Part shown: in pieces, positions 2,776-13,210 of the stretch | How positions within the stretch are numbered: the stretch's first letter is position 1 | How the letters are laid out: each line of letters starts with the position of its first letter | NCBI GenBank assembly: GCA_016212705.1 | Contig: JACREU010000120.1 | Coordinates: forward strand, 1-37,833 | DNA length: 37,833 bases | Source: Deltaproteobacteria bacterium | Lineage (GTDB): Bacteria; Desulfobacterota; GWC2-55-46 | Direction of reading: 5' to 3' | Position numbers and translations under genes: made by a program | The notes under the pieces: generated by a model | Told to the model about the DNA's origin: nothing | Databases searched by the model: none | The model's input: only the letters and a program-made list of their open reading frames with translations

Positions 2776-2944
2776 GGGCCGGCCTTAAGTCCTTTTCTTA
2801 AATAAGCCAGTCAAATATAACCGGGCCAGGAGAGCGGCGCAGGGCGGACCCCCGGCGTTCGTCTCATCCGGCCCGCATCCTTAGCCGCGCGTTGAAAGAA
2901 AGCGCCGGACCGCCCCGCGGCCGTGCATAACCCGAAACCAAACA

Positions 2945-3059
2945 GCGATCCATGGATGGATCGCCAAATTGTGAGATCAAATCGAACAATTTGTAAGGCT
3001 TGGCCGAATTTACTTCGGCCAAGCCGTAGCGGAAAAAGCCATGGACGGACTTTTTCCGC
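2945..3059. repeat. Cluster of four tandem hairpins upstream of mglA
   Basis: Four inverted repeats follow one another with almost no spacing: 2945-2964 (GCGATCC/GGATCGC), 2965-2993 (CAAATTGT/ACAATTTG, 13-nt loop), 2997-3025 (GGCTTGGCCGAA/TTCGGCCAAGCC, 12 bp perfect, 5-nt loop) and 3029-3059 (GCGGAAAAAG/CTTTTTCCGC, 10 bp). The first and last share the sequence CCATGGAYGG at their centre. The last hairpin ends 8 nt before the chosen mglA start. None has a proper U-tract terminator form. The block looks like a mobile palindromic repeat or a structured leader; which of these cannot be decided from one copy. Confidence 0.8.
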
Positions 3060-3067
3060 ACCTTAAG

Positions 3068-3655
3068 ATGTCATTCATAAACTACTCCTCAAGGGAAATA
3101 AACTGCAAGATCGTTTACTACGGGCCTGGCCTTTGCGGCAAGACCACGAACCTGCAGTTCATCTACAGGAAGACCAGGCCGGAGGCGAAGGGGAAGATGA
3201 TAACCCTCGCGACCGAAACGGAGCGGACGCTTTTTTTCGACTTCCTGCCGCTATCGCTCGGCGACATCAAGGGCTTCAAGACCCGCTTCCACCTCTATAC
3301 GGTGCCGGGGCAGATATTCTACGACGCGTCCCGCAAACTCATATTGAAGGGCGTTGACGGCATAGTCTTCGTAGCGGACTCGCAGGTCGAGAGGATGGAC
3401 GCAAACATCGAGTCCTTCGACAACATGAAGATAAACCTCGAGGAGCAGGGTTACAGCTTGAGCGAAATACCCTATGTGGTGCAGTACAACAAGAGGGACC
3501 TCCCGAACATCGTCCCGGTCTCCGAGCTTAAAAAGATGCTGAACTCGAACGGCATCCCGGACTTCGAGGCCGTCGCTAGCGACGGCCTCGGGGTGTTTGA
3601 GACGCTCAAGGCCATCGTAAAGCTCGTCCTCATAGAGCTTAAAAAAGGGGCTTAA
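3068..3655 (+). CDS. mglA: MglA-type small Ras-like GTPase
   Basis: The product from the ATG at 3068 is 195 aa, matching Myxococcus MglA, and begins MSFINYSSREINCKIVYYG as this family does. The longer ORF-track start at 3041 lies inside a hairpin loop and adds a non-family extension, so it was rejected. The P-loop is GPGLCGKTT (residues 20-28), the G3-like segment is TVPGQ, and the base-specificity motif is NKRD. MglA switches between GTP and GDP states to set cell polarity and drive type IV pili or gliding; roadblock MglB proteins activate its hydrolysis. The MglB-like gene lies about 290 nt upstream, separated by the hairpin cluster. No obvious Shine-Dalgarno site precedes this start, so translation may depend on the folded leader or on coupling. 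Confidence 0.92.
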   Translation: MSFINYSSREINCKIVYYGPGLCGKTTNLQFIYRKTRPEAKGKMITLATETERTLFFDFLPLSLGDIKGFKTRFHLYTVPGQIFYDASRKLILKGVDGIVFVADSQVERMDANIESFDNMKINLEEQGYSLSEIPYVVQYNKRDLPNIVPVSELKKMLNSNGIPDFEAVASDGLGVFETLKAIVKLVLIELKKGA

Positions 3656-4353: not shown

Positions 4354-5310
4354 ATGAAGATAAGGGAATTATACGAGAAGGCCGTAGCAAAGGGGATCGA
4401 GCTCGACCCGAGGGGAGAGGCCGAGGTAAGGAAAGAGCTTGAGAGGGAGAAAAAGGACTTCGAGGGACTCAAAGACAGGGACAAGAGGTTCTTCGACAAG
4501 GACAAGCTAACGAACCCGTACGCCGACTCCCGCATACTCTACGGAGACCCTGAGAAGGACGTCAAGCGCGTCCTCGTCGGCATCGACATGGAGATCGGCG
4601 AGGTGTTGCTCGCCGACAGGCTCCGTGAGCGCGGCAGACCCATCGATCTGATACTCGCCCACCACCCCGAAGGCAGGGCGATGGCCAACCTTTATGACGT
4701 CATGGACATGCAGTCAGGGATACTCCTTAAGTACGGCGTGCCGATAAACATAGCCGAAGGCATAATGGATGAGCGGATAAGAGAGGTGGAGCGCAGGCTC
4801 ATGCCCGCGAACCACACGCGGGCCGTAGACGCCGCGCGGCTCCTTGACATCCCCATCATGTGCATACATACGCCCACCGACAACGCCGTTACCGAGTTCC
4901 TCCAGAGGGCGTTTGATGAGAGGAAACCGTACCTCATTTCTGATATAATCGAGACACTCAGGGATATACCGGAATACGCGGCATCTGCGGGCGAGACAGG
5001 CATGGGGCCCAAGGTCGTCTCAGGGTCTGAAAAGAGAAAGGCCGGCAAGGTCTTCGTGGACATGACCGGAGGGACCGGCGGCTCGAAGAAGGTCTTCGAG
5101 AGCCTTGCGACCGCCGGCATCGGCACGGTCGTCGGGATGCACATAAGCGAGGACCACAGGAAAGAGGCCGAAAAGCACCACGTCAACGTGGTCATCGCCG
5201 GGCACATCTCGAGCGACACGCTCGGCATAAACCTCCTCTTGGACAAGGTCCTCCCGAATGACGTTGAAGTTGTCGAGACCTCCGGCTTCAGGAGGGTGAT
5301 AAGGACTTAA
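4354..5310 (+). CDS. NIF3/DUF34-family protein (NGG1p-interacting factor 3-like)
   Basis: This 318-aa protein resembles the NIF3/DUF34 metal-binding family. LILAHHPEG (around residue 100) corresponds to the family's HH metal-binding motif, and VVIAGHISSDTLGIN near the C-terminus corresponds to its second, GH-containing metal motif. The middle carries FVDMTGGTGGSKKVFE. The N-terminal 60 residues are charged and helical, which is the longer arrangement I associate with deltaproteobacterial members. The family forms oligomeric rings; a GTP-cyclohydrolase-like or metal-insertase role is debated, so no function is assigned. It is followed after 5 nt by mutS2, so the two are very likely co-transcribed. 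Confidence 0.75.
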   Translation: MKIRELYEKAVAKGIELDPRGEAEVRKELEREKKDFEGLKDRDKRFFDKDKLTNPYADSRILYGDPEKDVKRVLVGIDMEIGEVLLADRLRERGRPIDLILAHHPEGRAMANLYDVMDMQSGILLKYGVPINIAEGIMDERIREVERRLMPANHTRAVDAARLLDIPIMCIHTPTDNAVTEFLQRAFDERKPYLISDIIETLRDIPEYAASAGETGMGPKVVSGSEKRKAGKVFVDMTGGTGGSKKVFESLATAGIGTVVGMHISEDHRKEAEKHHVNVVIAGHISSDTLGINLLLDKVLPNDVEVVETSGFRRVIRT

Positions 5311-5315
5311 AGACA

Positions 5316-7640
5316 GTGGACTCAACTACGCTTGAAACCCTCGAATACGGCGCTGTATTAAAAGAGATCGCCGCGTTCGCCTCAAACCCGCTCGGGGAGG
5401 CGAGGGTCTTTAACACAAGGCCCTTTGCCTCCATCCAGACAATAGAAGAGACCTTCCGTGAATTCAAAGAAGTAAGGGACTGCGTCCAGGAGGCAGGGAA
5501 GCTCCCGCTCTCGGGTGTCGTTGACCTCGCCCCCCTCTTTGCGCTCGTCGAGCCGGATGGGGCGTACCTCCTGCCTGAGGACCTCGTCGTCGTAAAGGGG
5601 AACCTTGAGGCAACGGTCGCGCTTAAGGCCCTCATAACCCCCGCCTTCGAGCGCGCATATCAGAGGACAGCCGAAAAAATAAACTCGTTATCCGAGGTCT
5701 CCTTCCCGTTATCCGAAATAGAGAGGACGCTGGACGAGCGCGGCGACATCAGGGACAACGCCTCTACAGAGCTCCGGAGGATCAGGAAGGAGATACGCGC
5801 CGGCAGGGAGCGGGCGCGCTCCATCATCGAGCGCGTCTCCACGGACAAAAAGACCAGGGAGATACTCCAGGACGATATTATTACGATAAGGGACGACCGC
5901 TATGTCCTCTGCATAAAGGCCTCGGCCCACACCGCGTTCGACGGGATCATACACGGAAGGTCCATAAGCGCCCAGACGTATTTCATAGAGCCGCTTGAGC
6001 TCGTGGAGCTCAATAATCGGGTCGCGGTACTTAAGAAAGAGGAGCGCGCCGAGGAGATCGAGATATTGAAGGCCCTCACCTCGGTCATAAAGGCGCACAG
6101 GGACGGCATATTAAACGACCAGGCGATAGCCGCCGGACTCGACGACCTCCAGGCAAAGGCGCTCTTCGGAAAAGAGACCGGGGCCGTCATACCGGCGATG
6201 AAGAGGGAAGGGGAGATAGGGCTTTACGGCGCGAGGCACCCTCTCCTCGTCCTGAAAGAAAGGCGCGGCGGCCCCCCTGTCGTGCCAGTCGACATAGCCA
6301 TACCCGGGGGCTGTATGGCCCTCGTCATCTCGGGCGCGAATACCGGCGGCAAGACCGTCGCGTTAAAGACGCTCGGGTTACTCACTCTCATGGCCCTCTC
6401 GTCTATCCCGGTCACGGCGGACGAAGGGAGCGTGGCAATCGTCTTCAGCGGCATATTCTCCGACATCGGCGACAGGCAGGATATTATCGCGTCTCTTTCC
6501 ACCTTTTCCGCGCATGTAAAGAGGCTGAAGGGTTTTCTATCCGAGGCCGGTCCGGGCTCGCTCATCCTTGTCGACGAGATAGGCGCGGGCACCGACCCCT
6601 CGGAGGGCGGAGCCTTGGCGCTTGCGGCGCTGGAGACGCTCCGCGCCCAGGGCGCCAAGACCATCGTGACGACGCACCTTAACCTCCTTAAAGCCCACGC
6701 CCAGGTCGACCGGGCTTACCTTAACGCGTCCGTGGAATTTGATGAAAAGACCTTAAAACCACTCTACAGGCTCAACTACGGGGTGCCGGGTCCGTCCCTC
6801 GGGCTCTCCATCGCCGAGTCCCTCGGCATCCCGCACGCAGTTATAGAGCTCGCGCGCAAAAACATCAGGGAGAAGGAAGGGGCGTTCATCAACTCAATCA
6901 GGCTCCTCGAAGAGGAAAAGGAAGAGATACGAGGCCTGAAGGAGCGCCTCTCGGCGCTCGAAGGCAGGAGGAACGAGGCGGTAAAGAAACTCCGGGGAGA
7001 GAGGGCCTTGATGCTTGAAAAGGCGCGCGCAAGGGTCGAGACGCTCGTCTCGGAGGCGAGGCGGGATATGAAAGAGGCCATGGAGAAGCTCCGGGAAGAG
7101 GGGGCGGACAGGGGCAGAAAGTCCGCTCAATCGAGGATAGAGGAGATATCCGCAAGGGCGCTCTCACGCCTGCGCGCGCCCGGAAAAGAGATATACGCGC
7201 CGGCCCCGGGCGACAAGGTCGCGATAGACGGCTCCAGCTCCAAGGGCACCGTATTGAGCGTGGACGCCAACGCCAGGAAGGCCGAGCTCTCGGTGGGGGG
7301 CTTGAAGGTATGGGTCGCCTTCGAGAAGCTCGTCAAAAGGGGAGGGATGGAGAGGGCAAAGGCCGCTCAAGGGATAACGATAAACGCCGATATGGATGTT
7401 GCCTCGACCATTAATGTGATAGGCCGGAGGGCGGAGCCCGCCCTCGAAGCGGTGGCTAAATTCCTCGACAACGCGCACGCAAACGGTCTGCAGATGGTGG
7501 AGATAATCCACGGCGTCGGCACCGGGAGGCTCGCGAAGGCCATAGAGGAGCACCTTAAGGGCAACGGGCTCGTAAAGGGCTTTTCCCACGGCGACAGCGC
7601 GCGCGGCGGGGCCGGGGTTACCTTAGTGGAGCTTAAGTAA
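5316..7640 (+). CDS. mutS2: Endonuclease MutS2 / ribosome-rescue ATPase
   Basis: The 774-aa length is typical of MutS2. After a helical clamp/lever region, the ABC-type ATPase has Walker A GANTGGKT near residues 341-348 and Walker B LILVDEIGAGTDPSEGG near 415. A long charged coiled coil (about 510-620) follows, then a linker and a C-terminal Smr nuclease domain with IIHGVGTGRL. It lacks the mismatch-recognition N-terminus of MutS1. MutS2 is known either to restrain recombination or to act on collided ribosomes. The start is GTG at 5316, 5 nt after the preceding stop, with AAGGA 10 nt upstream. It runs into dnaG after 11 nt. Confidence 0.95.
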   Translation: MDSTTLETLEYGAVLKEIAAFASNPLGEARVFNTRPFASIQTIEETFREFKEVRDCVQEAGKLPLSGVVDLAPLFALVEPDGAYLLPEDLVVVKGNLEATVALKALITPAFERAYQRTAEKINSLSEVSFPLSEIERTLDERGDIRDNASTELRRIRKEIRAGRERARSIIERVSTDKKTREILQDDIITIRDDRYVLCIKASAHTAFDGIIHGRSISAQTYFIEPLELVELNNRVAVLKKEERAEEIEILKALTSVIKAHRDGILNDQAIAAGLDDLQAKALFGKETGAVIPAMKREGEIGLYGARHPLLVLKERRGGPPVVPVDIAIPGGCMALVISGANTGGKTVALKTLGLLTLMALSSIPVTADEGSVAIVFSGIFSDIGDRQDIIASLSTFSAHVKRLKGFLSEAGPGSLILVDEIGAGTDPSEGGALALAALETLRAQGAKTIVTTHLNLLKAHAQVDRAYLNASVEFDEKTLKPLYRLNYGVPGPSLGLSIAESLGIPHAVIELARKNIREKEGAFINSIRLLEEEKEEIRGLKERLSALEGRRNEAVKKLRGERALMLEKARARVETLVSEARRDMKEAMEKLREEGADRGRKSAQSRIEEISARALSRLRAPGKEIYAPAPGDKVAIDGSSSKGTVLSVDANARKAELSVGGLKVWVAFEKLVKRGGMERAKAAQGITINADMDVASTINVIGRRAEPALEAVAKFLDNAHANGLQMVEIIHGVGTGRLAKAIEEHLKGNGLVKGFSHGDSARGGAGVTLVELK

Positions 7641-7651
7641 AACTTAACCGT

Positions 7652-9394
7652 ATGAACATTCCGAAGGAAAAGATAGAGGAGGTAAGGGAGAGGGCCAATA
7701 TAGTCCAGGTCATCTCCGAGTACCTACCGCTCGCGAAGCGGGGGCAGAACCACCTCGGCCTCTGCCCGTTCCATTCCGAGAAGACCCCTTCGTTTACCGT
7801 AAGCGAGACAAAGGGGATATACTATTGTTTCGGGTGCAACGCCACGGGCAACGTCATCACCTTTCTCATGAAGAGGGACGGCATGTCCTTCCCCGACGCG
7901 GTAAAGACGCTCGCGAGGCGCTACGGCGTGATTATCCCCGAGGTGGAGAGGTCCGGGCCCGACCCCCGCGACCTACTCTTCCAGGCGTTAAGGGCCTCGA
8001 TGGAATATTTTATGCGGGAGCTGAAAGGGCCGGGGGGGGAGGAGGCGCGCGAGTACATCAGGAGGCGCGGCTTCGACGGAGAGATAGCCCAGAGGTTCAA
8101 CCTCGGGTACGCCCCGGACGTCTGGGAAGGGCTCACCGGGTTCCTGAGGAAAAAAGGCATCGCGGATGAGGCGTCGCTCTCTTCGGGCGTCGTCATAAAA
8201 AAGGAAAAGGGCGTCTACGACAGGTTCCGCGGAAGGGTCGTATTTCCCATAACCGACGTAAGGGGCAGGATTGCCGGCTTCGGCGGCAGATCGATAAACG
8301 GCAAAGACCCCAAGTATCTCAACTCGCCGGAGTCCCAGGTATTCAAGAAAGGCGAGACGCTCTACGGCTTCTATCAGGCCAAACAGCAGATGGCTTCGGC
8401 GGGCGCGATATTCGTGGAAGGGTACTTCGACCTCCTCGCCCTCCACAAGCACGGGTTCACGAACGCCGTCGCCACGATGGGTACGGCGCTAACGAAGGAG
8501 CACCTGAGGCTCGTAAAGGGGCATACCAACCTCGTTTACGCGCTCTTTGATTCGGACGCGGCGGGCAGGAACGCCTCCATCAGGGCGCTGGACATCGCGA
8601 TAGACGAGGAGATGGACCTGCGGGCCGTGACATTGAAGGGCGGCAAGGACCCGGACGAGTTCCTCGTCAAATTCGGGGCAGAGGCGATGAAAGAGGCTAT
8701 CGCGAAGGCCGAGCCTTTGATGGAATTTTTTTTAAAGGACCTCGGCGCGAGGCTCGATCTCAAGACACCGGCCGGGAAGAGAAAGTACCTCGACTCCGCA
8801 GTCCCGATGTTATCGAGGATAAGGAATGTGGCGGAAAGGGGGCATTATGCCGCGTTTGTCGCCACCGTCCTCAACATCCCGCAGGGATCGGTCTACGAAG
8901 CGCTAAAGATACCGCAAGGAACAGCCGAAAAGCCGGTGAGGGGGGCGATGGAGGCGCGGGAGGCGGTGGACATGAAGGGCGCGAGGCTCTCGGAGCTTAC
9001 GGTCGTCAAAGTCGTGGCCAGACACCCCGAGCTTTTAACCGACGGAGTCACTGTCGCCATGGGATCCTTCAGCGACCCTGTTTTAAAGAAGGCGGGGGCG
9101 ATAATCGCCGGGTCCATCCTGCGGGGTAAGCCGCTCGACGCCTCTGCCCTCATGGACGAGGCGGACGACGAGCCGACGCGCATCCTCATAGCCGGGCTCC
9201 TCATAAAGGACGACGACGGGTTCATAGAGGACCCGGCACGGATGCTCGAGGACAGTTTGAAAAGGGTCATGAATAGGGGTAATATAAAAGAGACCACCAT
9301 GCGCATGATCGAGAGGCTCGAGGAGATGGGCAGGACCGAAGTCGCTTCCGACATAAGAAAAAGAATGTCCACGGGGGCTAAGAGACGGCCTTGA
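7652..9394 (+). CDS. dnaG: DNA primase
   Basis: The 580-aa primase makes RNA primers at the replication fork. The N-terminal zinc-binding domain is intact, with C38, H41, C59 and C62 in [11 protein letters not shown]...YYCFGC. The catalytic TOPRIM core includes [16 protein letters not shown] (about 253-268) and [12 protein letters not shown] (about 297-308). The C-terminal region (about 430-580) is the variable helicase-interacting part. It begins 11 nt after mutS2, with no strong ribosome binding site. Its last codons overlap the possible TTG start of rpoD, keeping the classic dnaG-rpoD coupling. Confidence 0.96.
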
Positions 9395-9402
9395 AGGCAG
9401 TT

Positions 9403-10956
9403 ATGATCGAAGACATAAAGGACATAGCCGAAGAGGAAGACTCCGAAGAGAACGGTCTCGAGCTCGACGAGGAAGAGATCGAGGAAGACGTCTCCGTTGA
9501 GCCTTCCGAGGAGCCCCGGCCTTCGGATTACGAGCACGCGCCGAGCGCGCTCGCCGACCCGGTAAAGGCGTACCTCCGGGAGATGGGGGCGGTCTTTCTC
9601 CTTTCAAGGGATGAGGAGGTGGGGCTTGCCAAGAGGATAGAGGAAGGCAAGCTCGCCATCACGAGGGAGTTCCTCGGCTCGAATATCATTATCGAAGAGC
9701 TCAAGAGCCTTGAGGCCCGCCTCTCAGAGAGGAGGGGGGGCGAAGAGGTCCTCGGCTTCGACGACGACGAGGGCTTTCTTACAGAGGACGAACAGGACCT
9801 CCGGGAGGTATTGGGCGAGATAAACGAGGCCGTAAAACTCTTCTCCAGGTCCTCGAACGCAAGGTACGCGGCCAAGGACGAGGCGAAGCTCGTAAAGGTA
9901 CTCCTCGATATCGAGAAGCGGGCCAATATCTGCGAGAGGACTATCGAGAGGCTCAAGAAAAGGGTCAACGAGATACGGAGGCAGAGGAAGAAGAAGGCCG
10001 CCGTGGAAAAGGCGCTCGGCATGACCGAGCGGGAGATATTGAAGGCGGCGGCGGACATCGCGAAGGGGAAGGAGCGCGCGCTCTTGGCGCGCGCCGGCGC
10101 ATTCGACGCGGGCCTTAAGGAGATAGAGTCTCTGAACGCCGAAATAGCCTCGCTCGAAGAGAGGAGCGGCCTCGACTACCACGGCCTGAGCGCCATGGTC
10201 AGGTCACTTTCCGTCTGGATAGGGCAGGTGGAGGCCGCCAAGGAAAAGCTCATAAAGGCCAACCTGCGCCTCGTTGTAAGCATCGCCCGCCGGTACACGA
10301 ACAGGGGCCTGCAGTTTCTCGACCTCGTCCAGGAGGGCAACATCGGCCTCATGAGGGCGGTCGAGAAGTTCGAGTACAGGAGGGGGTACAAGTTCTCGAC
10401 ATACGCGACCTGGTGGATACGCCAGGCGATATCGCGCTCCATAGCCGACCAGGCGCGGACCATACGCATCCCCGTCCACATGATAGAGACGATAAACAAG
10501 CTCGTCCGCATATCCCACTACCTCGTGCAGGATACCGGCAAGGAGCCGACGCCCGAGGAGCTCGCCGAGAAGATGAGCCTCCCCATAGACAAGATAAGAA
10601 AGATAATGAAGATAGCCAAGGAGCCGATATCCCTTGAGACGCCGGTGGGGGAGGACGGCGACAGCATGCTCGGCGACTTCATCGAGGACAAGGAGGCGGC
10701 GGTCCCGCACGACGAGATGATCTCGAACGACCTTACCGGCCACATGAACGAGGTGCTCTCCACCCTCTCCCCGAGGGAGGAGAAGGTCCTGCGCATGAGG
10801 TTCGGCATCGGCGAGAATAAGGACCACACGCTCGAAGAGGTCGGCGAGTACTTCAACGTGACGAGGGAGCGCATACGCCAGATAGAGGCGAAGGCGCTCC
10901 GTAAGCTCAGGCACCCGAAGAGGTGCAAGAAGCTCAAGACCTTCTCGGAGAGGTGA
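9403..10956 (+). CDS. rpoD: RNA polymerase primary sigma factor (sigma-70)
   Basis: Region 1.2 begins at [11 protein letters not shown]. Region 2 reads [17 protein letters not shown]...[14 protein letters not shown] near residues 285-340, and region 3 follows. Region 4 is [30 protein letters not shown] near 475, the -35 recognition helix. The non-conserved insertion between 1.2 and 2 is present. The ORF track starts at TTG 9391, overlapping dnaG; the ATG at 9403 has GAAGG five bases upstream and is preferred, giving 517 aa. The N-terminus is about 45 residues of acidic sequence rather than the globular helical region 1.1 seen in many primary sigmas. The promoters in this window fit the expected TTGACA/TATAAT specificity. 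Confidence 0.95.
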
Positions 10957-11122: not shown

Positions 11123-11150
11123 TTGACATATTTTAATTTAGCGGTATAAT
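11123..11150 (+). promoter_or_regulatory. Consensus sigma-70 promoter for the cytochrome gene
   Basis: Perfect -35 TTGACA (11123-11128) and perfect -10 TATAAT (11145-11150) are separated by 16 nt in an AT-rich stretch. Transcription would begin near 11157, leaving a leader of about 120 nt. The preceding 160 nt downstream of rpoD hold no other recognisable gene. Confidence 0.85.
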
Positions 11151-11156
11151 TCGAAC

Positions 11157-11251
11157 AAGGTTTAAAGACCTGAAGGCTCAAGACGGGCCGCCAAGGTCAA
11201 GGCGATGGTGCCACAATACAACCTGCGAGTTGTATTGATGGCATTTTTTTT
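11157..11251 (+). promoter_or_regulatory. Structured leader with internal intrinsic terminator (candidate riboregulator)
   Basis: Between the promoter and the cytochrome start lies a strong terminator. TGCCA-CAATACAAC pairs with GTTGTATTG-TGGCA across a CTGCGA loop, one bulged A interrupts the stem, and eight T follow (11209-11251). Upstream, AGGT (11158-11161) can pair with ACCT (11168-11171), or GACCT can instead pair with AGGTC at 11194-11198. CGCC/GGCG also brackets that second site. Competing pairings before a terminator are the layout of an attenuator or riboswitch. By eye the sequence does not match the GEMM (cyclic dinucleotide), glycine, cobalamin or fluoride consensus. The ligand or trans-factor is unknown. 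Confidence 0.65.
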
Positions 11252-11279
11252 GGAAAAAAATGAAACATGAGGTCATACC

Positions 11280-12257
11280 ATGAAAAGAATACTTTTCAGC
11301 CTCCTCGCAGTATCAGCCATCGCCGTAACGGCAGGCCCGTCTTACGCGGTAAGCGTTAACGATTATCCGGCCGGACAGGCGGCGAGCGGCATAGCAGGGT
11401 CCAGGCACAACATGGGCTCTCTCGGAAGCGTCGTCTCAGCTAACGGCACTACGGAAATATGCGTCTTCTGCCACACCCCACATCACACGAACACGGCGAA
11501 CGGATTAAAGCCGATGTGGAACAGGGGCACATCGGCCCCGACCTCCTTCACCGCATATGGGAATACCATAGGCGGCACTACGATAAACAATACAGACATA
11601 GGCTCGACGACACTTGCGTGTCTTAGCTGTCACGACGGCGTAACCACCTTCGACAACCTTGTGAACGCGCCAGGCAAGGGCGGCGTCGTCTCGGGCGGCT
11701 CGGACCTCGGCTGGAGGTTCAGGATGCCTGTCGGCAGTTACTTGACTGCGGCCGCCGACCACTTCTCGGCATCCCAGTGTACCGCCTGCCACGGCACAGG
11801 CGGCCTTTATACGGACAACGACCTCACGTCGAGGCTCGTAATCGGCATGGACCTCTCGAACGACCATCCGGTCTCTGTCGCCTACAACACCAACAGGGCG
11901 GGCCTGCGCGCCACGAACACGACGATCAACTCCATAGACCTTACCAGCGAAATGGCCTCTTCCGCGGCCACCGCGTTTACCGGCAACCTCGCGCAGAACA
12001 GGTGGGCGGTCAAAGGGTTCATCTCCAGTACGGCGACTATATCGGACCTTCTCCGCGACGGCAAGGTCGAGTGCTCTTCCTGCCACGACCCGCACTTCAG
12101 GAACCTCTCATGGGACGAGGCTGAGCCGACCTGGGGCGACGAAGGCGGTTTCCTCACCTACTGTACGGCGGGCGAGGGTTGCGCGGACGGCCAGTTCCTG
12201 AGGCGTGTCGGCGGCAACACCGGCTCCGGCGTCTGCAGGACCTGCCACGAGAAGTAA
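11280..12257 (+). CDS. Multiheme c-type cytochrome (five CxxCH), exported
   Basis: The 325-aa product has a clear Sec signal peptide (MKRILFSLLAVSAIAVTAGPSYA). Five heme c attachment sites follow, with first cysteines at residues 61 (CVFCH), 114 (CLSCH), 167 (CTACH), 265 (CSSCH) and 319 (CRTCH). The histidine-bearing DHPVS segment near 200 is of the kind that often supplies a distal ligand. Heme spacing is wide, unlike compact c3 or c7 cytochromes, and resembles respiratory or extracellular electron-transfer cytochromes of Geobacter-like bacteria. The specific redox partner is unknown. TGAGGT lies 7 nt before the ATG. The gene has its own promoter, attenuator-like leader and terminator, so it is an independent, probably conditionally expressed unit. 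Confidence 0.9.
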   Translation: MKRILFSLLAVSAIAVTAGPSYAVSVNDYPAGQAASGIAGSRHNMGSLGSVVSANGTTEICVFCHTPHHTNTANGLKPMWNRGTSAPTSFTAYGNTIGGTTINNTDIGSTTLACLSCHDGVTTFDNLVNAPGKGGVVSGGSDLGWRFRMPVGSYLTAAADHFSASQCTACHGTGGLYTDNDLTSRLVIGMDLSNDHPVSVAYNTNRAGLRATNTTINSIDLTSEMASSAATAFTGNLAQNRWAVKGFISSTATISDLLRDGKVECSSCHDPHFRNLSWDEAEPTWGDEGGFLTYCTAGEGCADGQFLRRVGGNTGSGVCRTCHEK

Positions 12258-13182: not shown

Positions 13183-13210
13183 TTGACTTTAGGGTCGCTT
13201 CTGGTATAAT
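13183..13210 (+). promoter_or_regulatory. Sigma-70 promoter for rpsU
   Basis: TTGACT (13183-13188) and perfect TATAAT (13205-13210) have a 16-nt spacer. The predicted leader to the rpsU start is about 120 nt, unusually long for such a short gene. Confidence 0.8.

Follow-up and report, generated by a model that had tools for sequence, protein, structure and literature searches.

The window, that is, the whole 37,833-nucleotide stretch of DNA analyzed here (contig JACREU010000120.1 of a Deltaproteobacteria bacterium), carries a gene for a multihaem cytochrome that is preceded by a promoter, a leader, and an intrinsic terminator. The features of this locus, in window coordinates, are as follows.

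11123-11150 (+): sigma-70 promoter, TTGACA-N16-TATAAT, 12/12 match to the consensus
11123-11128 (+): TTGACA, the -35 box
11145-11150 (+): TATAAT, the -10 box, after a 16-nt spacer
11167-11198 (+): outer helix P1, GACCT (11167-11171) with AGGTC (11194-11198), enclosing hairpin A; from covariation and the MFE fold
11175-11189 (+): hairpin A, GGCTC-[AAGAC]-GGGCC, core C-ANGRN-G; loop conserved, stem covarying
11201-11212 (+): hairpin B, the putative antiterminator, GGC-[GATGGT]-GCC; from motif search and the MFE fold of nascent RNA
11209-11251 (+): intrinsic terminator including the T run; TGCC of its 5' arm overlaps the 3' arm of hairpin B
11209-11222 (+): terminator 5' arm, TGCCACAATACAAC
11229-11243 (+): terminator 3' arm, GTTGTATTG-A-TGGCA
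11244-11251 (+): run of eight T (T8)
11269-11272 (+): GAGG, probable ribosome-binding site, read from the sequence directly
11280-12257 (+): multihaem cytochrome gene, 325 aa, five CXXCH motifs, signal peptide-like start

The original prediction for this locus, a consensus promoter upstream of the cytochrome and a 14-bp terminator stem with eight T before the start codon, was borne out. The promoter is the sole 12/12 sigma-70 match within 15 kb, and the 14 pairs of the terminator stem are interrupted by a single bulged A. The leader is about 90 nt long, the promoter-to-terminator distance is about 100 nt, and 28 nt separate T8 from the ATG start codon at 11280. The cytochrome matches Paired_CXXCH_1 over the curated cut-off, and the upstream neighbor gene (9391-10956) encodes a sigma-70 factor. 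For the RNA spanning 11154-11250, the folding energy is -37.8 kcal/mol, compared to -23.0 ± 3.6 kcal/mol in shuffles (z -4.1). Promoter, leader, and terminator are all conserved in relatives, indicating that this array is not a product of chance. A second strong sigma-70-like promoter (TTGACT-N16-TATAAT, 11/12, with TG before the -10 box) lies at 13183-13210 (+), 3' of the cytochrome gene.

Within the genus, five of five genomes kept the leader, and at the blastn level matches reached the family and the order; one match (L012) lay inside a coding sequence and was dropped from the relatives. Covarying helices were visible in the aligned leaders (alignment A1). Of the 48 genomes of the order, 32 contain the element according to a covariance model (R1), with one to seven copies each and three in the window's own genome. 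A core model from which the terminator was left out (R2) gave hits at E-values up to 0.05 in at most 47 of the 63 class genomes, an upper figure that includes chance among its weakest matches, some of them inside coding sequence. Beyond the class, only nine weak matches were obtained among 395 genomes of the phylum, and these were judged from their sequences and neighbors to be due to chance; the element is thus confined to one class in the sample examined. Named carriers, among them GWB2_55_19 and GWA2_54_12, are groundwater 'Deltaproteobacteria' that have not been cultured. A search of Rfam 15, which had been proposed as a check, returned no match at the gathering score for the window leader or for 20 loci with other copies, and only chance matches at E-values up to 10. 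The RF01051 (GEMM-I) covariance model also gave no match at the element leaders (window and 20 relatives), in agreement with the earlier observation that this sequence does not fit the GEMM consensus.

The original prediction hinged on conservation or covariation of the segment 11157-11208 in relatives, and both were found. Two competing pairings had been suggested there: GACCT/AGGTC corresponds to P1 and is kept with compensatory changes, while AGGT/ACCT is not preserved in relatives, L006, L007, and L008 among them. P1 covaries among relatives and is restricted to part of the family, where it lengthens hairpin A. The loop core of hairpin A was near-invariant among 80 copies; its ANGRN loop is closed by U-G and C-G pairs, and the outer stem pairs change together. 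Most hairpin A stems have at least 5 bp, with only 3 in a few copies. In 32 diverse sequences, double-change cells numbered 41, compared to 20.9 ± 4.1 after shuffling (0 of 500 shuffles reached the observed value), and the covariation score was 0.314, compared to at most 0.127 when slid. Nearly all of this signal came from the hairpin A stem. A possible leader peptide, with the ATG in GGCGATGG as its start codon, was considered and rejected, since relatives such as L006 do not keep its frame, which closes early in them.

Hairpin B has the general form GGC-xANGR(N)U-GCC with a stem of 3-4 bp. It accompanied the hairpin A core in 76 of 80 copies, as determined by a motif search that required its three stem pairs, so these pairs do not constitute independent evidence. 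Three of its pairs are near-constant and one covaries weakly. The case for hairpin B comes mainly from conservation and from its overlap with the terminator, whose 5' base is formed by the same GCC that closes the hairpin on its 3' side. The linker between hairpins A and B spans 6-17 nt across the family; in the window it measures 11 nt, which drops to 2 nt when P1 is counted. The MFE fold of nascent RNA up to 11216 consists of hairpins A and B (-20.5 kcal/mol), and the full leader favors the terminator (-36.5 kcal/mol versus -30.0 kcal/mol with hairpin B forced); hairpin B is therefore placed to act as an antiterminator. Of the 56 cytochrome-type copies, 53 have a T run after the terminator. 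Neither a third helix nor a pseudoknot was seen, and conservation was limited to the loops of the two simple hairpins. Many of the terminator hairpins (L063, L073, L116, and others) contain a third A-N-G-R loop (CC-GAYGNN-GG), a possible third binding site. In some cases a single gene is preceded by several copies in tandem, either of the whole element or of just hairpin A, at L074:1758-1957 (-), L086:297-433 (-), L094:2899-3085 (-), and L156:6502-6671 (+).

Paralogous multihaem cytochromes with 4-6 haems follow 56 of the 84 copies in the order, and PocR-GAF-GGDEF proteins of about 525 aa (one read by Pfam, the rest assigned by sequence likeness) follow another 21, so that 77 copies lie in cis to one of these two gene types. 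Sigma-70 promoters were present ahead of 44 of 56 cytochrome copies versus two of 21 PocR-GAF-GGDEF copies. Judged from these sequences, the leader is probably what had been proposed, a conserved regulated attenuator tied to respiratory cytochromes. The GGDEF domains read carry a GGEEF motif and canonical N and D at the signature positions, and the PocR-GAF-GGDEF proteins therefore resemble diguanylate cyclases rather than cGAMP (Hypr) enzymes. The Hypr type, for which a recognition rule reportedly comes from one published study, was rejected given the canonical N and D in the domains read. Possible further regulon members, named from sequence only, are FTR1-like permease genes (L242, L245) and a possible PilZ protein (L237). 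In family f7, hairpin A-like elements lie behind promoters and before the FTR1-like iron permease genes, at L242:2099-2140 (-) and L245:568-617 (+), which may possibly link the regulon to iron.

ANTAR targets are defined by a pair of hairpins with similar loops, of which the second overlaps a terminator (PMC3369931). The element resembles known targets (EutV eut leaders, NasR nasF, and AmiR amiE; PMC3369931, PMC8934654) in its two small hairpins and short linker, in an A-N-G-R loop core whose G is kept, and in a second hairpin that overlaps an intrinsic terminator upstream of the gene. The A-N-G-R core is also common to the element and the 13-mer recognized by EutV, AGCAANGRRGCUY with the loop AANGRR (PMC3369931). 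Both element hairpins have at least 3 bp, their linker falls within 2-25 nt, and hairpin B and the terminator are mutually exclusive. Multi-copy regulons are known for ANTAR targets (PMC3369931, PMC8934654).

The differences lie in the loops and in the genes controlled. Canonical ANTAR loops are hexaloops with A at position 1 (A1) and G at position 4 (G4), whereas hairpin A is C-[ANGRN]-G, with a 5-nt loop in 80 of 80 copies from a motif search that itself asked for a 5-nt ANGRN loop with C-G closure. The hairpin B loop, xANGR(N)U, is mostly 6-7 nt. Counted from the nucleotide before ANGR, the loop G is kept at position 4 and the A at position 2, and all four bases occur at position 1. Relatives L111, L243, and L248 can be read as CU[GANGRN]GG hexaloops. 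Since hexanucleotide loops in both hairpins and A1 were not found, we do not file the element as a canonical ANTAR target. It also precedes multihaem cytochrome and PocR-GAF-GGDEF genes, whereas ANTAR targets are mainly nitrogen genes. ANTAR antitermination of respiratory genes has been described for NasT control of nos and nap in Bradyrhizobium diazoefficiens (PMC6759348). According to the available part of that account, the system differs in relying on nitrate-sensing NasS-NasT for denitrification, and this part describes neither a family of paralogous cytochromes nor stand-alone ANTAR genes beside the targets (PMC6759348).

Every genome of the order (48 of 48) encodes an ANTAR domain (PF03861), versus none of 14 control genomes. 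In seven genomes (G009, G010, G019, G024, G026, G027, and G028), stand-alone ANTAR genes adjoin a paralogous cytochrome, and in G009, G010, G019, G026, and G028 the modelled element is present at that locus. One or two stand-alone ANTAR genes start about 80-150 nt after the element-led cytochrome in G009, G019, and G026. The same arrangement occurs in G028, with one copy decayed, and in G010 the pieces of the cluster are split over two contigs. The cytochrome-ANTAR pairs of G024 and G027 are without a modelled element. Stand-alone ANTAR genes directly 3' of multihaem cytochromes were located at the following positions.

L155:7027-7758: stand-alone ANTAR gene or genes
L156:7914-8222: stand-alone ANTAR gene
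L158:1513-1788: stand-alone ANTAR gene
L161:5299-5619: stand-alone ANTAR gene

In the decayed duplicate of the element-cytochrome-ANTAR cluster of G028 (contig C23, L157:12728-14213), the cytochrome has a broken frame and the ANTAR gene is reduced to a fragment. The stand-alone proteins have about 90-110 aa and no receiver domain, and several carry an N-terminal cysteine pair; the proteins are possibly redox-responsive. Most element-bearing genomes are without a stand-alone ANTAR gene, and the window's own genome showed none next to a cytochrome. The pair of hairpins, with hairpin B reaching into the base of the terminator, and the ANTAR genes beside several copies point to a protein-dependent (ANTAR) antiterminator and not to a new attenuator class for a small ligand. 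The suggestion of a diverged or new attenuator class stood as regards a conserved attenuator, but the two small hairpins differ from a riboswitch-like aptamer with the competing pairings named there.

The window's genome encodes two ANTAR response regulators, an N-type (contig C115) and a C-type (contig C6). The N-type gene is near glnK and amt genes, where the leaders have canonical A1/G4 dual hexaloops with the second hairpin overlapping a terminator.

L154 (G000:C115): canonical dual hexaloops upstream of glnK (2802-3140, -) and of 4714-5463 (-)

One of these leaders reads GGCCAC[AUCGGC]GUGGCC with GGC[AAAGGC]GCC, and the other GGUUAC[AAUGGC]GUAACC with GGC[AAAGGC]GCC. Such hexaloops ahead of glnK and the amt-region operon make it probable that a nitrogen regulon in this genome is controlled by ANTAR antitermination. 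The C-type gene adjoins an upstream gene for a 703-aa membrane protein without a Pfam match; pairing of the C-type regulator with an HK was rejected on these grounds, and the protein was classed as an orphan regulator.

In the EutV-RNA structure, the conserved loop G is flipped out and forms the sole base-specific contact, and M172 is proposed as a loop plug and size gauge (PMC8934654). When aligned with EutV, 29 of 29 C-type proteins sampled keep the G4 pocket that holds the flipped G (R142, K149, E160, and an aromatic residue at 164), and all 29 carry R168Q, M172Q, N173K (R in one), R175N, and R177K. Five sampled N-type sequences retain M172 and R175. This residue pattern, a correlation only, fits a reader that keeps G recognition and takes a different loop. 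The C-type paralogue occurs in most genomes of the class and turns up commonly in genomes that yielded no element as well. In G061 the element is present with no C-type hit. Co-occurrence of element and C-type among good genomes (Fisher p = 0.16) is weakly informative and confounded by phylogeny.

Building on what can be read in these genomes (promoter, both hairpins, terminator overlap, conservation, recurrence, gene association, and ANTAR adjacency), we consider it probable that the leader controls transcription by antitermination in the manner of an ANTAR target and represents a variant class used for electron-transfer genes. RNA polymerase would start at the 11123-11150 promoter, and the emerging leader would form hairpin A followed by hairpin B. 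Unless a regulator is active, the second hairpin would melt into the more stable terminator and transcription would stop at T8, before the cytochrome. An active ANTAR-domain protein would bind the A-N-G-R loops, hold hairpin B, and remove the base of the terminator, allowing the cytochrome to be transcribed. ANTAR binding of the leader and the resulting switch-on of expression are what this model predicts, and the usual reader would be the orphan response-regulator paralogue (G000 C6, P0001). Repeated before several cytochromes and a PocR-GAF-GGDEF protein, the element would define an electron-transfer regulon in each genome.

The main rival is a small-molecule riboswitch in which a ligand, for example a cyclic dinucleotide, stabilizes hairpin B and prevents termination, with the PocR-GAF-GGDEF protein providing feedback. 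The 21 of 84 copies that precede PocR-GAF-GGDEF genes with GGEEF and canonical N and D would suit such a switch, as would the leader-terminator layout. There is also the precedent of Geobacter, where cGAMP GEMM riboswitches control cytochromes (PMC6456294, PMC8835794); GEMM-I/cGAMP riboswitches (RF01051) are likewise leader-terminator switches tied to cytochromes and extracellular electron transfer in deltaproteobacteria. However, GEMM-I differs from the element in sequence and fold, and its matches across the order (L277-L296) precede TPR, adhesion-like, and other genes and not these cytochromes, so GEMM was rejected as their regulator. GEMM-I matches number up to six in one family (f4) and zero to two in f1, which is rich in the new element. 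The bare two-hairpin anatomy described above matches no Rfam riboswitch, and a riboswitch would leave the adjacent ANTAR genes unexplained. We therefore regard a riboswitch as improbable and as less likely than the ANTAR reading.

Control of termination by another RNA-binding protein that binds the paired hairpins, such as CsrA/RsmA or another factor, seems very unlikely. CsrA recognizes the motif ANGGA, and many hairpin B loops are AUGGA and hence ANGGA-like, but hairpin A loops are without GGA in nearly all copies (AUGGC, AAGAC, ACGAC, AUGAA), and the elements are located at terminators rather than at ribosome-binding sites. Lowest of all we rank a stand-alone small RNA that ends at the terminator, with the cytochrome expressed only by read-through or from a second promoter. 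A strong promoter and a strong terminator about 100 nt apart would be expected of such an RNA, yet the T8-to-ATG gap is only 28 nt, 77 of 84 copies are kept in cis to cytochrome or PocR-GAF-GGDEF genes, and hairpin B is positioned for competition with the terminator.

Within the preferred reading of an ANTAR-type antitermination switch, we tentatively suggest, as a possibility we would not yet favor, that there is a second ANTAR code. The plug-swapped paralogue (M172Q with R168Q, N173K, R175N, and R177K) would read the compact ANGRN loop pair and run an electron-transfer regulon parallel to the canonical A1/G4 nitrogen regulon, and in some genera the stand-alone cysteine-pair ANTARs would be redox-sensitive partners or competitors. 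ANTAR antitermination is known mainly from nitrogen metabolism. If the leader functions as proposed, this mechanism would extend to a multi-copy regulon of multihaem cytochromes and a PocR-GAF-GGDEF protein, and ANTAR would fill in these bacteria the role held in Geobacter by cyclic-dinucleotide riboswitches. Two target classes and two paralogous readers within a single genome would also make ANTAR RNA specificity directly testable, through the exchange of five residues or a few loop bases.
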